This document shows, piece after piece, positions 29,736 to 35,931 of a stretch of 41,872 nucleotides of DNA (position 1 is its first letter; each line of letters begins with the position of its first letter). Made by a program: the position numbers and the translations under genes. The stretch lies in assembly GCA_018303885.1 (NCBI GenBank), contig JAGVXG010000005.1:1-41872 (forward strand). Direction: 5' to 3'. Origin of the DNA: Candidatus Pacearchaeota archaeon (GTDB taxonomy: Archaea; Nanobdellota; Nanobdellia; Pacearchaeales; GW2011-AR1). Below the pieces are notes generated by a model. It searched no databases. It was not told where the DNA came from and saw only the letters and a list, made by a program, of their open reading frames with translations.

Positions 29736-30674
29736 ATGAAACACAATCCAAAAATAACAGCCATTCTTCTGGCAATGTTTATAGTAACTCAGTTAATTGG
29801 AATTTATGTTGTTAGTTATTATTCTCCTGTCAAAGTCGTGAACCAACAAGTTACAGAAGTTACAAATGCGCCTTCGTTGCCACTTGGACTGGAAACACCA
29901 AGAGTCGAAAAAGAATCCCAATATCCAGGGCTTTTTTTAGGAATAGTAGTAGCATTTATTTTTGCGATTTTATTATTTCTTCTTCTTACCAGATTTAAGG
30001 TAGAATTTGTCCTTAAACTTTGGTTTTTTATTGTCGTCGTAATAGCGCTTTCAGTTTCTTTCCTTAGCATTCTCTCTCCGTTTATCACTAAAGCATTGAT
30101 GATCTCTGTTATTCTTGCCTTTATTCTCGCAATGGCAAAAATCTACGGAAGAAACTTTATTGTTCACAACGCTACAGAACTTTTTATCTACCCCGGAATC
30201 GCAGCTGTCTTTGTCCCGATTCTGAATGTCTGGACAATCGTGGCTTTGTTGATTTTAATTTCAGTTTACGATGCCTGGGCTGTTTGGCATTCTGGAATCA
30301 TGCAGAAAATGGCAAAATACCAGATAAATCAACTGAAAATTTTCTCTGGATTTTTTGTTCCTTATTTTGCTAAAGGCGTAAGGCGTAAAATAGCGAATTG
30401 GAAGAAAACGCTAAGCAAAACTCAGTTAAGAAAGAAAAAAATCAAAGTAAGCATCGCAATCCTCGGCGGGGGCGACGTAGTATTCCCAATTATAACAGCA
30501 GGAGTCATGCTTAAGACTTTAGGATTAACATCAGCGCTATTTGTAATTGCTGGAGCAACTCTTGGGCTTGCATACCTGTTTTTCTTTTCAAAAAAGAAGA
30601 AATTTTATCCTGCAATGCCATTCATAACAGCAGGAATTTTGCTTGGTATTGCGGTTAGTTATTTAGTTTTGTGA
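29736..30674 (+). CDS. presenilin/SPP-type GxGD intramembrane aspartyl protease
   Basis: A 312-residue polytopic protein with about nine hydrophobic segments, the first at 8-28. The two catalytic Asp residues are in SVYDAW (Asp179) and LGGGDVVFP (GxGD, Asp247), and YPAMPF (291-294 PAMP) takes the place of the PAL motif. This fits the archaeal presenilin-like A22 family (DUF1119 / SPP_2). It should cut transmembrane helices, for example leftover signal peptides. A long polar loop (about 30-64) lies outside. It has its own TATA-like promoters and is not in an operon. Confidence 0.9.
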   Translation: MKHNPKITAILLAMFIVTQLIGIYVVSYYSPVKVVNQQVTEVTNAPSLPLGLETPRVEKESQYPGLFLGIVVAFIFAILLFLLLTRFKVEFVLKLWFFIVVVIALSVSFLSILSPFITKALMISVILAFILAMAKIYGRNFIVHNATELFIYPGIAAVFVPILNVWTIVALLILISVYDAWAVWHSGIMQKMAKYQINQLKIFSGFFVPYFAKGVRRKIANWKKTLSKTQLRKKKIKVSIAILGGGDVVFPIITAGVMLKTLGLTSALFVIAGATLGLAYLFFFSKKKKFYPAMPFITAGILLGIAVSYLVL

Positions 30675-30705
30675 TCTAAGAAATGTTTTAAGAGTTTAAG
30701 AATTC

Positions 30706-31044
30706 TTAATTTCTTTTAAAAATTTCGCACAATTTTCTCTCAACTTCAATTATTTTTTCTTTTTTTAAAGAACCAAATTTATAGATTATTAGCTTTTTTC
30801 TAAGTGTAAATAGCCTAGAAGGCCTAATAAAACTTTTTATTTTCAGACTTCCAGATTCTATATCTTTCATATTTAGCTCAATTTTATCTTTATCAGCTCT
30901 CTCTTTTGTAGTAATTTCACAGAGAATTATATCATCTCCATCCAAGTTTGCAACGACTAAAGCAGGCCTTTTTATTACCGATGTTAAGTCAGTAAATGGA
31001 AAATAAGTCACAATGATATCTCCTTTAGTATAAATTTGTTTCAT
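30706..31044 (-). CDS. MazF/PemK-type endoribonuclease toxin
   Basis: 112 residues with the MazF fold: KGDIIVTYFPFTDLTSVIKRPALVV (basic substrate strand, Arg-Pro), an ILCEITTKE strand carrying the conserved Ser/Thr position, SFIRPSRLFTL and a final KLCEIFK helix. MazF enzymes cut mRNA at short motifs and halt growth. It is encoded 27 bp after a ribbon-helix-helix protein, the usual antitoxin-first order. The partner is RHH-type rather than MazE-type, a known mixture. Confidence 0.9.
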   Translation of the reverse strand: MKQIYTKGDIIVTYFPFTDLTSVIKRPALVVANLDGDDIILCEITTKERADKDKIELNMKDIESGSLKIKSFIRPSRLFTLRKKLIIYKFGSLKKEKIIEVERKLCEIFKRN

Positions 31045-31071
31045 TTTTTATAATAACGGAATTTTAGATTT

Positions 31072-31296
31072 TTACAAATCTTTCCAAGCCTCATTATCTT
31101 CTTCACTTAGCCAATCCTCTGCTAAAAGTTCCTGATCAGCCAATATAGGAGATTTTTCACTAATAATTTCTAATTTTTCAAGCTGCTCTACTCGACCTTC
31201 AATAATTTTTCTAACAAATTCACTCCATTTTATTTCAGAGTACCTTTTCATTTTTTTGTAAACTTTATCATCTATGGAAAGAGTTATATTCGTCAT
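31072..31296 (-). CDS. ribbon-helix-helix antitoxin
   Basis: 74 residues. An N-terminal RHH DNA-binding domain (NITLSIDDKVYKKMKRYSEI, then WSEFVRKIIEGRVEQLE) precedes an acidic C-terminal tail (LLAEDWLSEEDNEAWKDL) that should wrap the toxin. It is the first gene of the pair with the MazF-type toxin. A palindrome between its TATA box and ATG is the probable self-operator. Confidence 0.85.
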   Translation of the reverse strand: MTNITLSIDDKVYKKMKRYSEIKWSEFVRKIIEGRVEQLEKLEIISEKSPILADQELLAEDWLSEEDNEAWKDL

Positions 31297-31301
31297 AATG
31301 T

Positions 31302-31321
31302 AATAAGTGGGCTCACTTATT
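31302..31321. promoter_or_regulatory. palindromic operator of toxin-antitoxin operon
   Basis: AATAAGTG (31302-31309) and CACTTATT (31314-31321) are perfect inverted arms 4 nt apart. They sit 6 nt before the antitoxin ATG and overlap the minus-strand TATA-like GATTTAAAT. This is the expected place for autorepression by the RHH dimer. Confidence 0.6.
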
Positions 31322-31361
31322 TAAATCTTTCTGTATTAATAAAGTTTGGTTTTGAAAAAAA

Positions 31362-32009
31362 CTAAACTAATAATTCAAGTCGAGGAAGTCCTCTTAGTTG
31401 CTTTAGTCTGGACAAATCACCCATAGTATGTGTATAAGCATGTTCTGCCTCGTATCCTATTAAATTGCCTGGATTAGAAACGACAAAATATCCTAAAGGA
31501 ATCATGTTCCAAGAGCGAATTTCTGCGCAGCCAACATTTGCAAAAACCCCTCTTTTCAAATGCCCGTCTGTCATTTTTCCCAAATCATGCCAATTTACAG
31601 GCCCATCAGACGCAACCCATGTATGGTAATCTGCGTGTCCAACAACAAAAATATTTCCAAAATCTGTATCTTGAACTACCTGTCTTAAATCCTCAGAAGA
31701 AGCTCGTTCAACCAAATCAACTTTTCTTCTAAAACTAAATTTTCCCCTCTTTTTTTCCAATTCAAATTTTAATCCAGAAGCCGCGACTAAGTTATGATAA
31801 TGGTCTATACTACTTTCACATCCATCTCCGCCACAACTTGAAACCAAAATTGCAGTTTTATCTCCTTTATTCGTTCTCTCAAGTAACCTTAATGCAAGAT
31901 ATTTGGGTAGAAGCTCTCTAACTAGCTTTTTCTCTCTTTCTTCAATGCCTGTTTTATAATTACTAGGTAAAAGAAAATCTATGTTTTTGTCTGGATATAA
32001 AATACTCAT
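31362..32009 (-). CDS. putative caspase/CHAT-like cysteine peptidase-fold protein, 215 aa
   Basis: Not assigned to a family with certainty. The order of motifs resembles clan CD (caspase, CHAT, gingipain): strand KTAILVSSCGGDG (about 51-63), a helical stretch, strand NIFVVGHADYHTW with candidate catalytic His125, then RGVFANVGCAEIRSW with candidate Cys161, 36 residues later. There is no signal peptide and no partner domain. ATG 32009 is preferred to 32030 because AGCTTATATA (32031-32040) would place transcription start near 32010. Neighbours are a MazF pair and a divergent lipoprotein operon. Confidence 0.5.
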   Translation of the reverse strand: MSILYPDKNIDFLLPSNYKTGIEEREKKLVRELLPKYLALRLLERTNKGDKTAILVSSCGGDGCESSIDHYHNLVAASGLKFELEKKRGKFSFRRKVDLVERASSEDLRQVVQDTDFGNIFVVGHADYHTWVASDGPVNWHDLGKMTDGHLKRGVFANVGCAEIRSWNMIPLGYFVVSNPGNLIGYEAEHAYTHTMGDLSRLKQLRGLPRLELLV

Positions 32010-32112
32010 AAAAAATCTAAAATTTTTCATTATATAAGCTTTTCCCTTATGTTGTCACTTCAGAAAAGCAACATACAGAAAGATTTAAATACCTGCTATT
32101 TCTGAAAAAACT

Positions 32113-32571
32113 ATGAGAAAAACACTAAGAAGTTTACTTGGGATTGCTACGGTTGGTTTAGCTTTGGCTGGATGTGAACTAGAAGGTTTCAGAGATGTAA
32201 CAAGAGAAGAATTCAATAAAGCTGGGGCAGTTGTTAATTTAATTTACCCAGCCGTGGGGGATACTTTTTATAACTCTGGCCCATCAACTGGCACTTACAT
32301 TGAAAGAGATTTGTCAATAGTGGACGTAGATGGAAACGGAACTGCAGATATAATCAAAGGTGAATTTGGCTTATCTATCAAATTTGTAGCTGATGAGTTT
32401 GCTAACCGAAAAATTGGCCGACTTGAAACTAACTACGCTAGATTAATGACTCCAGAAATGAGGGAAGCGGCAACAAGAGCGCTAAAAGCAGATCAAGATT
32501 TAGCTTATTTAATAGCTAAAAAAAATTATAAAGTATACCTAGAAATAAAAAGAAAGGAAGGTAAACAATAA
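32113..32571 (+). CDS. lipoprotein, 152 aa
   Basis: A signal peptide with lipobox LALAGC (Cys about residue 21) directs it to the outer face of the membrane by lipid attachment. The exported part carries IVDVDGNGTADII, an EF-hand/dockerin-like calcium loop, and a helical basic C-terminus. The function is not recognised. It is the first gene of a six-gene run (32113-34614) with tiny gaps. GATTTAAATAC lies about 25 nt upstream of the ATG. Confidence 0.65.
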   Translation: MRKTLRSLLGIATVGLALAGCELEGFRDVTREEFNKAGAVVNLIYPAVGDTFYNSGPSTGTYIERDLSIVDVDGNGTADIIKGEFGLSIKFVADEFANRKIGRLETNYARLMTPEMREAATRALKADQDLAYLIAKKNYKVYLEIKRKEGKQ

Positions 32572-32575
32572 AAAA

Positions 32576-33385
32576 ATGCTCGTAAAACAAGATTTAATAA
32601 ACAGAATTAAGGATTACTTTGACCTTAACATCTATGAAACAAAAGTTTGGCTGGCTTTGCTTGGAAAAGGCGTGGCTTCTGCAGGGCAAATCGCGGTAAT
32701 ATCTAATGTTCCTCGTTCAAGAACCTATGATGTCCTTGAAAGTCTTGAGAAAAAGGGCTTTGCAATTGTGAAGCTCGGAAAGCCTGTAAAATACCTTGGA
32801 GTAAAGCCATACATGATTCTTGAAAAATTAAAGAACAATGTAAGAAGCGATGCAGAAGAAAAAATAATAACTCTTTCAAACATAAAAAGCACAGACGAAT
32901 TCCAAAAACTTGAAGAAATGTACAAAGGCGGCTTAGAACCAGTGAAGCGTGAAGATGTTTCTGCTGCATTAAAAGGAAAGTCAAACATTACAAATCATTT
33001 GAGAGATATCCTTCAAAACGCATCCAAGGAAGTAATAATGTGCACGAATGTAAGAGAAATGGGTTCAAAGTTAAAACTCTTCCAGCAAACAATTGAAAAC
33101 CTTAAAAAAGCCAACATAAAAATAAGAGTTGCCTTGTCAGGAGACGAAAAACTCATCAAAAAAATGGAAGATGACTTACAGGTAAAAATCAAAAAAGTCA
33201 ATGTAGATGCAAAGTTCTTCATAATTGACAGGAAAGAAATGCTCTTTTACATATCAAAAGATTCAAAAGAACCTGGCCAGTCCTTAAAGAACAAAAACCA
33301 GGAAGACATCGCCATTTGGCTTAATTCTGAATTTTTCGCCGGAGCATTCGCAACTCTTTTCGAAAAGGCTGTCGGTGGTGATTGA
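32576..33385 (+). CDS. TrmB-family transcriptional regulator
   Basis: 269 residues. The N-terminal winged helix (FDLNIYETKVWLALLGKGVASAGQIA, then VPRSRTYDVLESLEKKGF) is the TrmB signature, followed by a C-terminal PLD-like sensor domain (ASKEVIMCTNV, later KFFIIDRKEMLF and IAIWLNSEFFAG). TrmB proteins sense sugars or other ligands and repress or activate nearby genes. It is 4 bp after a lipoprotein gene and overlaps nothing, so it probably controls the operon it lies in. The ligand is unknown. Confidence 0.88.
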   Translation: MLVKQDLINRIKDYFDLNIYETKVWLALLGKGVASAGQIAVISNVPRSRTYDVLESLEKKGFAIVKLGKPVKYLGVKPYMILEKLKNNVRSDAEEKIITLSNIKSTDEFQKLEEMYKGGLEPVKREDVSAALKGKSNITNHLRDILQNASKEVIMCTNVREMGSKLKLFQQTIENLKKANIKIRVALSGDEKLIKKMEDDLQVKIKKVNVDAKFFIIDRKEMLFYISKDSKEPGQSLKNKNQEDIAIWLNSEFFAGAFATLFEKAVGGD

Positions 33386-33387
33386 GA

Positions 33388-33606
33388 ATGGCGGACGACG
33401 ACTTCATTCCAAGAGCAATGAGAAGTTGTTTTTCTTCAAGAGAACTTGAGAGAATGACAGAGTTTTTTGATAAAAATTTTGATGGTTTAAATCTTAAAGA
33501 TTTGCCAGAATATAGAACAGTAGTTAATGCTATGGGTGCTTATGCTGAAGCAGTAGCTTCACGTTATGTTACTGCTAAAGCTCAAAATCAAGGAGGGGAA
33601 AAATAA
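33388..33606 (+). CDS. hypothetical protein, 72 aa
   Basis: Not recognised. A small helical acidic protein starting MADDDFIPRAM with no membrane segment. ATG 33388 lies 2 nt after the TrmB stop; a TTG at 33382 would overlap it. It is co-transcribed in the lipoprotein-TrmB operon. Confidence 0.5.
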   Translation: MADDDFIPRAMRSCFSSRELERMTEFFDKNFDGLNLKDLPEYRTVVNAMGAYAEAVASRYVTAKAQNQGGEK

Positions 33607-33607
33607 A

Positions 33608-33859
33608 ATGACAAGAAAATTAGAAAAATTACTGATCGGATTTGGAGCGGTTGGCGTTGGTACAGGAATGGTTTTATCATATTTACCAAATGCCAAAGAG
33701 AACCCAGAGTATATAGTTGGATCAATTTTAGCCGGAGCAATTTCCACCCTTGTGGGAAGTTGGATTTATTCTGGAAATGAACAAAAAGCAATAGAAGAGG
33801 TTTATCGAAGATACCAGCAAGCAGCTCTTGAAGCAACTAAACAAAGAGAGCGAACTTAA
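33608..33859 (+). CDS. small membrane protein, 83 aa
   Basis: Not recognised. It starts MTRKLEKLLIGFGAVGVGTGM and has two Gly-rich hydrophobic helices (about 7-24 and 35-54), then a charged helix ending in RERT. The ATG follows the previous stop after 1 nt (TAA-A-ATG). An upstream in-frame start would overlap the 72-aa gene. It could anchor the operon's soluble proteins at the membrane, which is inference. Confidence 0.55.
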   Translation: MTRKLEKLLIGFGAVGVGTGMVLSYLPNAKENPEYIVGSILAGAISTLVGSWIYSGNEQKAIEEVYRRYQQAALEATKQRERT

Positions 33860-33860
33860 A

Positions 33861-34262
33861 ATGACAAACACAATAGAAGAAAGATTAATCGCTGAAGCAA
33901 ATTTTGGCGATTTAGTAGAAGTTACTTTAAGAGAAGGTAACTTTTGCGCTCTGCATACTGAAGGTGGAATAACTATCTTTGAATCAAACGCTAAAGAATT
34001 ACCTGTAGATGAACATAGAATTCTACATGCGGTTGGTTATTATGGTGGAATGACGGACACTAAATATGAAGATCAAGGAACTCAAATGGTTGAACATGCT
34101 GGGGGAGAAATATTAGTATGTTTAAATCCTACAGTTCATGATATAAATGCTGTTAGTCAAATACATTCTACTGGTGCAGGATACGTAAAAGTACCTCTTT
34201 CAGCTATAGAATCTTATTCAATTAAAGGAAAAGAGAGAAGAGGATTGAGGGTAGTAAATTAA
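33861..34262 (+). CDS. hypothetical protein, 133 aa
   Basis: Not recognised. A soluble, probably beta-rich protein (FGDLVEVTLREGNFCALHTEGG) with several His residues and no signal. The ATG is 1 nt behind the previous stop. The surrounding TTAAAATGACAAACACA is repeated exactly at the start of the next gene, so the two begin with the same four codons (MTNT). Confidence 0.55.
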   Translation: MTNTIEERLIAEANFGDLVEVTLREGNFCALHTEGGITIFESNAKELPVDEHRILHAVGYYGGMTDTKYEDQGTQMVEHAGGEILVCLNPTVHDINAVSQIHSTGAGYVKVPLSAIESYSIKGKERRGLRVVN

Positions 34263-34263
34263 A

Positions 34264-34614
34264 ATGACAAACACATTACTAAGTTTAGCACTTGCTGGTG
34301 CAGTTGGCTTAGCTTCTGTTGGATGCAAGGATAAATTTACATTAAAGGGAGAATTAATAAAAGATTACGTCCATAAAATGCAACCAGAAGGCTATGTTTA
34401 TAGAATAGTTGTCCAAAATTCTGAAGGAATAGTCACTTATCCGGTAATTGGAGATTCGGCAGAACTTGCAAGATTAGAAAGATATTTTGTGAGCAGAGAA
34501 GATAATGGTGTTAAAGGCGACTCTATAGCAATTAATCCAGAAAGCGTTATTTTTTCTTTAGATGAAGTAATTTTATTGCCAGAAAACATAAAAAAGATTA
34601 GACAACAGAAATAA
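34264..34614 (+). CDS. lipoprotein, 116 aa
   Basis: A signal peptide of about 20 residues with lipobox LASVGC, so it is lipid-anchored outside the cell. The mature part (about 95 aa) looks like a small beta-barrel (FTLKGELIKDYV, YVYRIVVQNSEG) but is not recognised. It is the last gene of the operon headed by another lipoprotein, so the operon encodes two surface lipoproteins plus a regulator. Confidence 0.65.
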   Translation: MTNTLLSLALAGAVGLASVGCKDKFTLKGELIKDYVHKMQPEGYVYRIVVQNSEGIVTYPVIGDSAELARLERYFVSREDNGVKGDSIAINPESVIFSLDEVILLPENIKKIRQQK

Positions 34615-34635
34615 TTTCTTAAAAAAACTAAACTC

Positions 34636-35931
34636 CTAAACTTTAAAACTTACAATGTACATCTCTTTAATCTTGTCTGTATTTGACTTTTTCCAGCGGG
34701 CAATGAATTCTCTTAGACTGAAACTTATGTTTTCTTTAGCATAAATCCTACCGCTTTTGATAAAAGTTTTTTTGTGCCGTGCCTTAAACCTCTTTAGATT
34801 CTCTTTATCATCTGTTTTTGGGCCTTGGAGCAGAATTTCTTTTTTCGGCTTTACTGCAAAAGCGAATTTTGCTGTTTTATTGTCATTATATTGAAAACCT
34901 TTTTCTTTTACTTCAAAATATCCACTTAGTTCTTCGGCTAGGTGATTGTAAAATTTCAAGAGCTTGCTTCCGGCAATGTCTCCTTCTTGCCTGTCTGTCA
35001 TTGCCTCCAGCAAGATAAACTCATTTTTCCTCTTTTTGGCGCTCTCCTTCAAGGTTTCAAAATCAACACCTTGGTTTTCAAAAGACTTTATACTTGGATT
35101 CTTTAAAAAATCAGTGCACGCTTTTTGGAATTTCTTAAAAGTTTCTTCAGACAATGCAGCAAGCACATTTCTCTGTTTATGCGTCGGGTCTATAAGAACT
35201 ACCGGCGATTGCAATTTTGCAGCATTAACATCCATTAAAACAATGTTTTTGTTCTTATACTGTTTCTCGATGTCTATGACAAGCTTTTCTCTCGCATTAA
35301 CTTTAGCCATGGCTGCTATGAATTTTAGAAAGCTTCCGTAATGGTAAATCAAAAGCTCCAAGCCATAACCTGAAAATCCCTTTATGTAAGATTCAGCGCC
35401 GTAACAGCCGTTTGCATGACAAAAAGCCTTGGCGAGCCTTACTTCATCCAAGAGATTTCCTTTTAATTTTCTTTTAACATAATTAACATGAAAATACGAT
35501 AAATCGGTAATGTTCTCTGCTTCTTTCTGGTTTTTGATTTTTTTAACAGGGACAACCTCAAAGAACAGGTTTTTTGAAGCTTTGATTCTGAAATAATCTC
35601 TTGAGCCGTGAATTCTTTGCTTATTCTTGGTATTTTTCAGCATTTTTTCAGTTAAATCCGAGACATTGCTTTTTTTATCATTGCCAAAATACTTTTTATC
35701 AAATCTTATGAAAACATCTATGTCATAATGTTCTTTTTTTATTAGAGTCCTTTTGGCAGAGCTTCCCCCGACAAAAATCTCTGCGGCAATTCCTAGCGTT
35801 TTTCTGTTTTTTTCAAGACCTATGAGAAATTTTTCAAGAAGAATATTGATATTTTTTAGTCCTTCTTCCTTGGGTTTCACTTTTTCCAGCGCCTCTTTTA
35901 AAATAGAACTAATGTTTCTCTTTTTCTTCAT
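34636..35931 (-). CDS. cca: CCA-adding tRNA nucleotidyltransferase (archaeal class I)
   Basis: 431 residues. The nucleotidyltransferase head has FVGGSSAKRTLIKKEHYDIDVFIRF (GGS at 55-57, metal Asp70 and Asp72), followed by the central KGFSGYGLELLIYHYGSF and VVLIDPTHKQRNV blocks and the tail domain. It adds CCA to tRNA 3' ends, needed because tRNA genes such as the tRNA-Tyr here lack CCA. Length and domain order are normal for class I. CTTATAAATATT upstream is shared with the divergent SemiSWEET gene. Confidence 0.95.
   Translation of the reverse strand: MKKKRNISSILKEALEKVKPKEEGLKNINILLEKFLIGLEKNRKTLGIAAEIFVGGSSAKRTLIKKEHYDIDVFIRFDKKYFGNDKKSNVSDLTEKMLKNTKNKQRIHGSRDYFRIKASKNLFFEVVPVKKIKNQKEAENITDLSYFHVNYVKRKLKGNLLDEVRLAKAFCHANGCYGAESYIKGFSGYGLELLIYHYGSFLKFIAAMAKVNAREKLVIDIEKQYKNKNIVLMDVNAAKLQSPVVLIDPTHKQRNVLAALSEETFKKFQKACTDFLKNPSIKSFENQGVDFETLKESAKKRKNEFILLEAMTDRQEGDIAGSKLLKFYNHLAEELSGYFEVKEKGFQYNDNKTAKFAFAVKPKKEILLQGPKTDDKENLKRFKARHKKTFIKSGRIYAKENISFSLREFIARWKKSNTDKIKEMYIVSFKV

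Follow-up and report, generated by a model that had tools for sequence, protein, structure and literature searches.

A stand-alone cytosolic cysteine peptidase with a caspase (clan-CD-type) fold, made up of roughly the minimal caspase/haemoglobinase core and a short helical N-terminus, is the probable product of a small gene in the window, the 41,872-nucleotide stretch of archaeal DNA that was analysed here and that comes from a draft genome (G000) of 0.72 Mb. The analysis showed a promoter-bearing coding gene, a His/Cys family of 31 members, a predicted topology of the caspase core, caspases as the top structural matches of the models and a position in a variable slot. The family appears to have been unnamed until now. 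It is scattered through archaea with tiny genomes and is missed by Pfam, NCBIfam and PADLOC. No publication naming it was found in the open literature on archaeal and DPANN caspase-like proteins, and the available text of PMC10907252 and PMC12669027 mentions caspases and DPANN and does not describe this family.

The coordinates of the gene and of the features around it are listed in Table 1. The earlier note had picked out this frame from the letters, and it proved to be real, with an open frame, a TATA box of its own and homologues elsewhere. The longest form of the frame starts at 32030 and encodes 222 aa. Among the 54 genes of the window, the TATA-like hexamers peaked at −27 and −29 relative to the start codon, with 10 genes each. 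The TATA-like sequence GCTTATATAA was located at −30 to −21 of the 32009 start, and none was so placed for the 32030 start. Since only the 32009 start possessed a correctly placed TATA-like hexamer, the 215-aa form was preferred, and the numbering His125/Cys161 was therefore kept (His132 and Cys168 in the 222-aa frame). In this numbering, the motifs VVGHADYH and FANVGCAE yielded His125 and Cys161 with the spacing of 36 residues that had been claimed, and the proposed N-terminal strand, AILVSSCGGDG, corresponded to the first strand.

Table 1. Positions in the window of the caspase-fold gene, its key codons and the neighbouring features.
Feature	Position	Strand	Basis
Presenilin-like signal peptide peptidase, conserved left border of the slot	29736..30674	+	PF06550, E 2.6e-12; synteny
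PemK/MazF-like toxin gene, 112 aa	30706..31044	-	PF02452, E 2.6e-10, above cut-off
RHH-type antitoxin-like gene, 74 aa	31072..31296	-	PF12651, E 0.0052, below curated cut-off
Promoter region of the RHH gene	31305..31325	-	TATA box TTTAAATA at 31318-31325, position -29
Caspase-fold gene	31362..32009	-	215 aa; homologues in other genomes
Codon of the putative nucleophile Cys161, which follows strand b4	31527..31529	-	28/31; alignments to caspases
Codon of Asp135, region of the small beta hairpin (A-S-D-G-P-V)	31605..31607	-	Asp in 23/31
Codon of the putative catalytic residue His125, where strand b3 ends	31635..31637	-	27/31; predicted strand
TATA-like box fitting the 32009 start	32031..32038	-	survey of hexamer positions
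Small lipoprotein-like ORF, divergent, 152 aa	32113..32571	+	no family match
TrmB-like regulator, conserved right border of the slot	32576..33385	+	PF01978, E 8.7e-16; 8/8 same-genus stretches

The window protein as a query gave no match in Pfam at E ≤ 5, and, searched alone, it gave none in genome_contigs, viral contigs, plasmids or phages. PDB sequences returned chance rows only, in both the single-sequence and the profile search, and tblastn of a central relative found no match in plasmids. Searched for as a single sequence, the protein had matches in 3 of 93 relatives (the own genome and the dropped L003 included) and in 10 of 378 genomes of the class. With a profile of ten core sequences and a threshold of E ≤ 0.001, matches were obtained in 21 of the 371 genomes searched from the phylum, counting the own genome, and a 25-row profile gave matches in 7 of 200 from the order, including one judged false. 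In total, the family comprised 31 distinct members including the window protein, all in the same archaeal phylum: 25 in alignment A3, together with L037, L040 and L106–L109. Two candidates were dropped, namely L003 (E 0.009), which by eye lay within a glycosyltransferase-like ORF, and L110 (E 2e-4), inside a frame of 3702 aa resembling a surface protein. The loci L001, L019 and L105 correspond to the gene in the window itself, and duplicates were counted once (L036=L021, L038=L014, L039=L016, L041=L017, L042=L025, L015=L004, L005=L012, L006=L014, L008=L017, L009=L013, L010=L016, L011=L018, L002=L020 and L104=L027). Five of the seven named family records belonged to Candidatus Woesearchaeota, and the other two were named only "archaeon". 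A scan of the 25 A3 members with Pfam, NCBIfam and PADLOC at E ≤ 1 gave no recognised clan-CD match; one of them matched DUF4347 at E 0.19.

The common motifs of the family were G-H-G/A, an aromatic residue (mostly Trp), A-x-D-G-x-V, K-x-G and T/G-C. The residue after the His was Ala126 in the window protein and Gly in most relatives. The His was present in 27 of the 31 members and the Cys in 28. The earlier note had asked whether the two are conserved in homologues, and the pair was intact in 26 of 31, a conservation that is more than chance.

AlphaFold2 models of the window protein and of its relative L041 were both obtained from the same set of eight sequences. The window model had a pLDDT of 51.5, with 88 in the best block of ten and values below 50 beyond residue 168 of the 222-aa form, and the L041 model had a pLDDT of 65, with blocks of at least 90 around the dyad. 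Both models displayed the topology b1-a-b2-a-b3(His)-hairpin-a-b4(Cys), so that their secondary structure followed the clan-CD strand and helix order b1-a1-b2-a2-b3-(small beta section)-a3-b4, and in both the His was at the end of b3 and the Cys at the end of b4. According to the available part of PMC4357240, the minimal caspase/haemoglobinase core consists of four strands and three helices with the dyad at the b3 and b4 ends. A parallel sheet of the order 2-1-3-4 would be expected from the alignments of the models to caspases.

In the Foldseek search of the PDB with L041, caspase-3 was the best match (E 4.9e-5), 47 chains had E ≤ 0.001, and, among the matches listed, 50 of 50 were caspases or SAVED-CHAT. 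With the window model, the best E was 1.8e-3 and none was at E ≤ 0.001; rows 1–19 were caspases or SAVED-CHAT, and lumazine synthase was at rank 20. VIA gave L041 a best Z of 8.7 for the caspase-3 complex 7xn4 (rmsd 3.4, 124 aligned), and further rows were 7zoq (Z 8.1) and 8rot (DdvA, Z 7.8). For the window model, the best row was 8tl0, a SAVED-CHAT (Z 6.8, rmsd 5.3, 132 aligned), and caspase-7 had a Z of 6.7 (rmsd 4.0, 107 aligned), all below the Z of 8 under which, by VIA's own guidance, a match may reflect a common arrangement. The search of viral structures in BFVD gave weak rows, some of which were viral caspases. A comparison with the caspase alpha-beta-alpha fold had been proposed as a check, and it turned out in favour of that fold: the predicted topology matched, and the best structural matches of the models were caspases and SAVED-CHAT. 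A shared fold by itself shows no function.

Many of the VIA alignments stopped at the Cys+5 position of the model, and the matching ends were residue 290 in caspase-1, 259 in caspase-11, 168 in caspase-3 and 191 in caspase-7. The catalytic Cys is C285 in caspase-1 and C254 in caspase-11 according to the structure titles, and the available text of PMC4357240 gives C186 for caspase-7. In caspase-3, the catalytic Cys is C163. Because the alignments end at Cys+5 on both sides, the Cys of the models is placed in register with those of caspases-1, -3, -7 and -11.

The relation of the family to the known clan-CD peptidases was considered in three comparisons. Caspases (C14A) are proteases of animal programmed cell death, and the family resembled them in the b1-a-b2-a-b3(His)-small beta section-a-b4(Cys) order, the top structural matches and the Cys register, whereas the models were without a clear p10-like extension, no site of caspase-type processing was apparent and the identity in structural alignments was about 6–16%. 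Like the orthocaspases and metacaspases (C14B, PF00656), some of which (MaOC1) also lie beside toxin-antitoxin modules, the models had a p20-type core with a His/Cys dyad. However, PF00656 was not matched by the window protein at E ≤ 5 or by any of the 25 members at E ≤ 1. Moreover, the Asp two residues before the Cys, which makes the basic-P1 pocket of C14B, was found in 0 of 31 members, as was Glu (0/31), and most relatives carried His, Tyr or Phe there. In the comparison set of 11 C14 proteins from the phylum, from which the twelfth locus L074 was left out, the residue was Asp in 10 and Glu in 1. Since the Pfam match and the Asp (missing in 31/31) were both lacking, the window protein was not assigned to the C14 orthocaspases. 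CHAT proteins (SAVED-CHAT, TPR-CHAT) resembled it through 8tl0, and SAVED-CHAT rows were intermixed with caspases among the best structural matches, while the window protein had neither a CHAT Pfam match nor a sensor or repeat domain. No match to PF12770 (CHAT), PF01650 (C13 legumain) or PF01364 (C25 gingipain) was obtained for the window protein or the 25 members, and none of 111 class genomes had CHAT. Of the clan-CD likeness suggested earlier, the predicted fold topology and the His/Cys dyad held, and an identity with CHAT or gingipain was not supported (no match to these Pfam families at E ≤ 1 in 25 members). The predicted fold and the dyad suggest clan CD, and the hallmarks of C14 were not found. 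In the same-size sample, C14 occurred in 12 of 371 phylum genomes, compared with 21 of 371 for this family.

The family was also compared with the 11 C14 proteins by HHalign, in which His was paired with His and Cys with Cys (E 0.0038, score 25.2). The reversed C14 profile scored 27.8, and the score of the true pair was reached by 1 of 100 block shuffles and 0 of 100 column shuffles. The score therefore proves nothing, and the match was rejected as evidence. This result and the low pLDDT of the window model would be in agreement with an unrelated alpha/beta fold in which the His and Cys had arisen by convergence. Such a fold is very unlikely in view of the two models, the conserved pair, the clan-CD order, the matching topology and the Cys register to four caspases.

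In the tree, the window protein formed a clade with L004, L109 and L028 (support 97/98), and its identity was 42% to L004 and 31% to L109. H125, D135, G160 and C161 were invariant when the window protein, L004 and L109 were aligned, and all three had His-Ala and Gly-Cys. Substitutions at the His/Cys positions were found in L012 (Q/C), L013 (Y/C), L007 (P/V) and L031 (M/A). These four His-less members fell in one other clade (support 92/92), and the tree program flagged L007 and L031 as long branches. The L020 gene was frame-broken before the Cys motif, with HTCG in the next frame (L050:5685-6967). The dyad-less L007 adjoins an intact gene of a C13-type peptidase lipoprotein (PF01650, E 1.4e-7; L062:326-1891).

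Further observations were made at single loci. The Tyr-for-His member (L044, genome G214) was located in a signalling neighbourhood of FecR-type genes and a gene for a CHASE2-adenylate cyclase, and the Gln-for-His member (L043, genome G203) between two protein kinase genes of the same strand with touching ends. Close to another member was a protein whose His...Cys pattern was weakly C25-like (E 0.22; L048:7153-9403).

The broken members bear on whether the window protein might be a caspase fold without protease activity, namely a pseudo-enzyme or binding scaffold of the pseudo-orthocaspase or cFLIP type. The dyad was not intact in 5 of 31 members (L012, L013, L007, L031 and L020), the pairing of L007 with the C13-type gene resembles that of a pseudo-enzyme with an enzyme, and the window protein has Ala instead of Gly after the His. 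However, the window protein and the rest of its clade retained both His and Cys, and the four losses of His were confined to a different clade, in which L007 and L031 are the long branches. This alternative thus deserves some weight and is fairly improbable for the window protein. Like pseudo-orthocaspases, some relatives carried other residues in the dyad, Tyr replacing His in one of them, whereas the four His-lacking archaeal relatives belong to a different family. The part available of PMC6426788 reports no pseudo-orthocaspase among its 93 archaeal sequences, with the dyad intact in all.

In the N-terminal regions, 22 of the 27 members tested had a hydrophobic segment ahead of the domain (mean hydropathy of at least 1.4 over 17 residues), which was clearly missing from the window protein and from L004, its closest relative. 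From the sequences, most relatives look membrane-tethered, whereas these two do not. In addition, six long members (L014, L016, L020, L021, L029 and L037) carried the twin-arginine-like motif [STG]-RR-x-F-[LF], located after an N-terminal region of 140–200 aa and before the hydrophobic segment and the caspase-fold domain. TatC was found in 1 of 26 genomes (G485), compared with 11 of 14 control genomes, and was absent from the 5 tested genomes of the motif-bearing long members. Tat export of these members was rejected because of this absence.

The caspase-fold gene was indeed next to a toxin-antitoxin pair in position, being followed on the same strand by the RHH-like gene and then the PemK toxin gene. 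An inverted repeat read by eye, AAGTG-N4-CACTT (31305-31318), touches the TATA box of the RHH gene and is a possible autoregulatory operator, judging from its letters. By raw count, a TA-type gene was the immediate neighbour in 3 of 27 loci read (the window, L049 and L060), and the families differed: L049 adjoined a VapB antitoxin (PF02697), and L060 adjoined UPF0175 (PF03683) and DUF3368 (PF11848). A weak ParE-like match lay farther away at L112. In Microcystis, according to the available text of PMC7935541, the MaOC1 gene precedes a TA pair, and MaOC1 cleaves the ParD-like antitoxin of this neighbouring pair and stops the growth of E. coli, while an inactive mutant does not stop it. By analogy, the window protein could cleave the RHH antitoxin and so free the PemK RNase. 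The caspase homologue, the antitoxin (below the cut-off) and the toxin share the order and strand described for the MaOC1 module in that part of PMC7935541, and TA-type genes also directly adjoin L049 and L060. However, the RHH gene has its own TATA box and possible operator, TA-type neighbours of differing families occurred in just 3 of 27 loci, and at the closest relatives the adjoining gene is that of a nucleotidyltransferase. This analogy was given little credence because it is based on one locus. A broader proposal was considered equally improbable, according to which DPANN own a minimal caspase-fold protease family, commoner than C14 here and with membrane-tethered and pseudo-enzyme forms, and the window copy would be a convergent death switch destroying the RHH antitoxin and freeing the PemK RNase. 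The TA neighbour is real and probably incidental, since the RHH gene is served by a separate promoter, the slot varies in eight genomes and no TA pair is present there in the closest relatives.

The nucleotidyltransferase of about 600 aa flanked two closest relatives (L046:7304-9127 and L111:4151-5932, in opposite order and 37% identical; PF01909, E 1.1e-6 for the L111 copy). It was found in 292 of 296 class genomes, the window's own included (on another contig), and is therefore a core gene. It was rejected as a dedicated partner, and that two of the four clade members have it alongside is a lead only.

The gene order in the same genus was presenilin-like peptidase, slot, TrmB-like regulator, slot and CCA enzyme. 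The peptidase (one cut by the contig end) and the regulator were found in 8 of 8 same-genus stretches, and the CCA gene was absent from the G002 stretch. The content of the first slot differed in each of the eight same-genus genomes and was reduced to about 140 bp in G006. In the window, it holds the PemK, RHH and caspase-fold genes and the small lipoprotein-like ORF; the caspase-fold gene was in that slot in 0 of 8 same-genus genomes. The description as an accessory stretch was thus confirmed, the slot holding different small genes or almost nothing in the eight genomes and never this gene. Moreover, the whole region from the presenilin-like peptidase to the CCA enzyme (window 29736-35931), in which hypervariable slots flank the TrmB-like regulator, is a hotspot of small unknown genes.

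For the defence scan, 80 near genes were searched with PADLOC and Pfam, and 100 far genes, sampled from 203, with PADLOC. Among the best 25 of 66 PADLOC families of the near genes, the matches were mainly kinase-type models hit by two proteins. The far control set gave single matches to 18 families. The identified neighbours were mostly housekeeping genes (Pfam, best 25 of 59 families). No recurring defence partner was found among the near genes (PADLOC best 25 of 66, Pfam best 25 of 59), and the defence-island reading was rejected on these scans, among the matches listed. An abortive-infection or other antiviral effector would fit the sporadic presence (21/371 phylum genomes), the variable slot and the structural likeness to SAVED-CHAT and to the 7zoq chain, whose title names a complex of a CRISPR effector and a caspase regulator. 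It is nevertheless unlikely, as the protein has no sensor domain and, among the matches listed, no recurring defence neighbour, the near-gene PADLOC rows were mainly kinase-type (best 25 of 66) compared with the single matches of the far controls to 18 families, and nothing was found in phages, plasmids or viral contigs. The hint of the earlier note at defence and cell death was therefore not supported: among the matches listed the neighbours were mostly housekeeping genes without a recurring defence partner, and the TA pair is separately promoted and not a common neighbour of the family.

The preferred reading is that of a peptidase. The window protein is best read as a compact His/Cys cysteine peptidase of clan-CD type that is probably active. 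In this mechanism, His125 would activate Cys161, which would then attack the scissile carbonyl of a substrate protein, and the oxyanion hole may be provided by backbone NH groups near Ala126 and Cys161. Arg or Lys is probably not preferred at P1, since the protein lacks the Asp found in the pocket of orthocaspases. The protein would probably act as a conditional regulatory or stress protease.

Archaeal caspase-like proteases have been thought rare; the available part of PMC6426788 counts 93 archaeal p20 proteins among 11,208. In our study, 21 of the 371 genomes sampled from one phylum carried a separate family, which includes archaeal members with a broken dyad. If active, the window protein would be a caspase-type enzyme that is very compact and whose substrate pocket is uncommon, and direct tests of the role of such proteases in cells with very small genomes would become possible.
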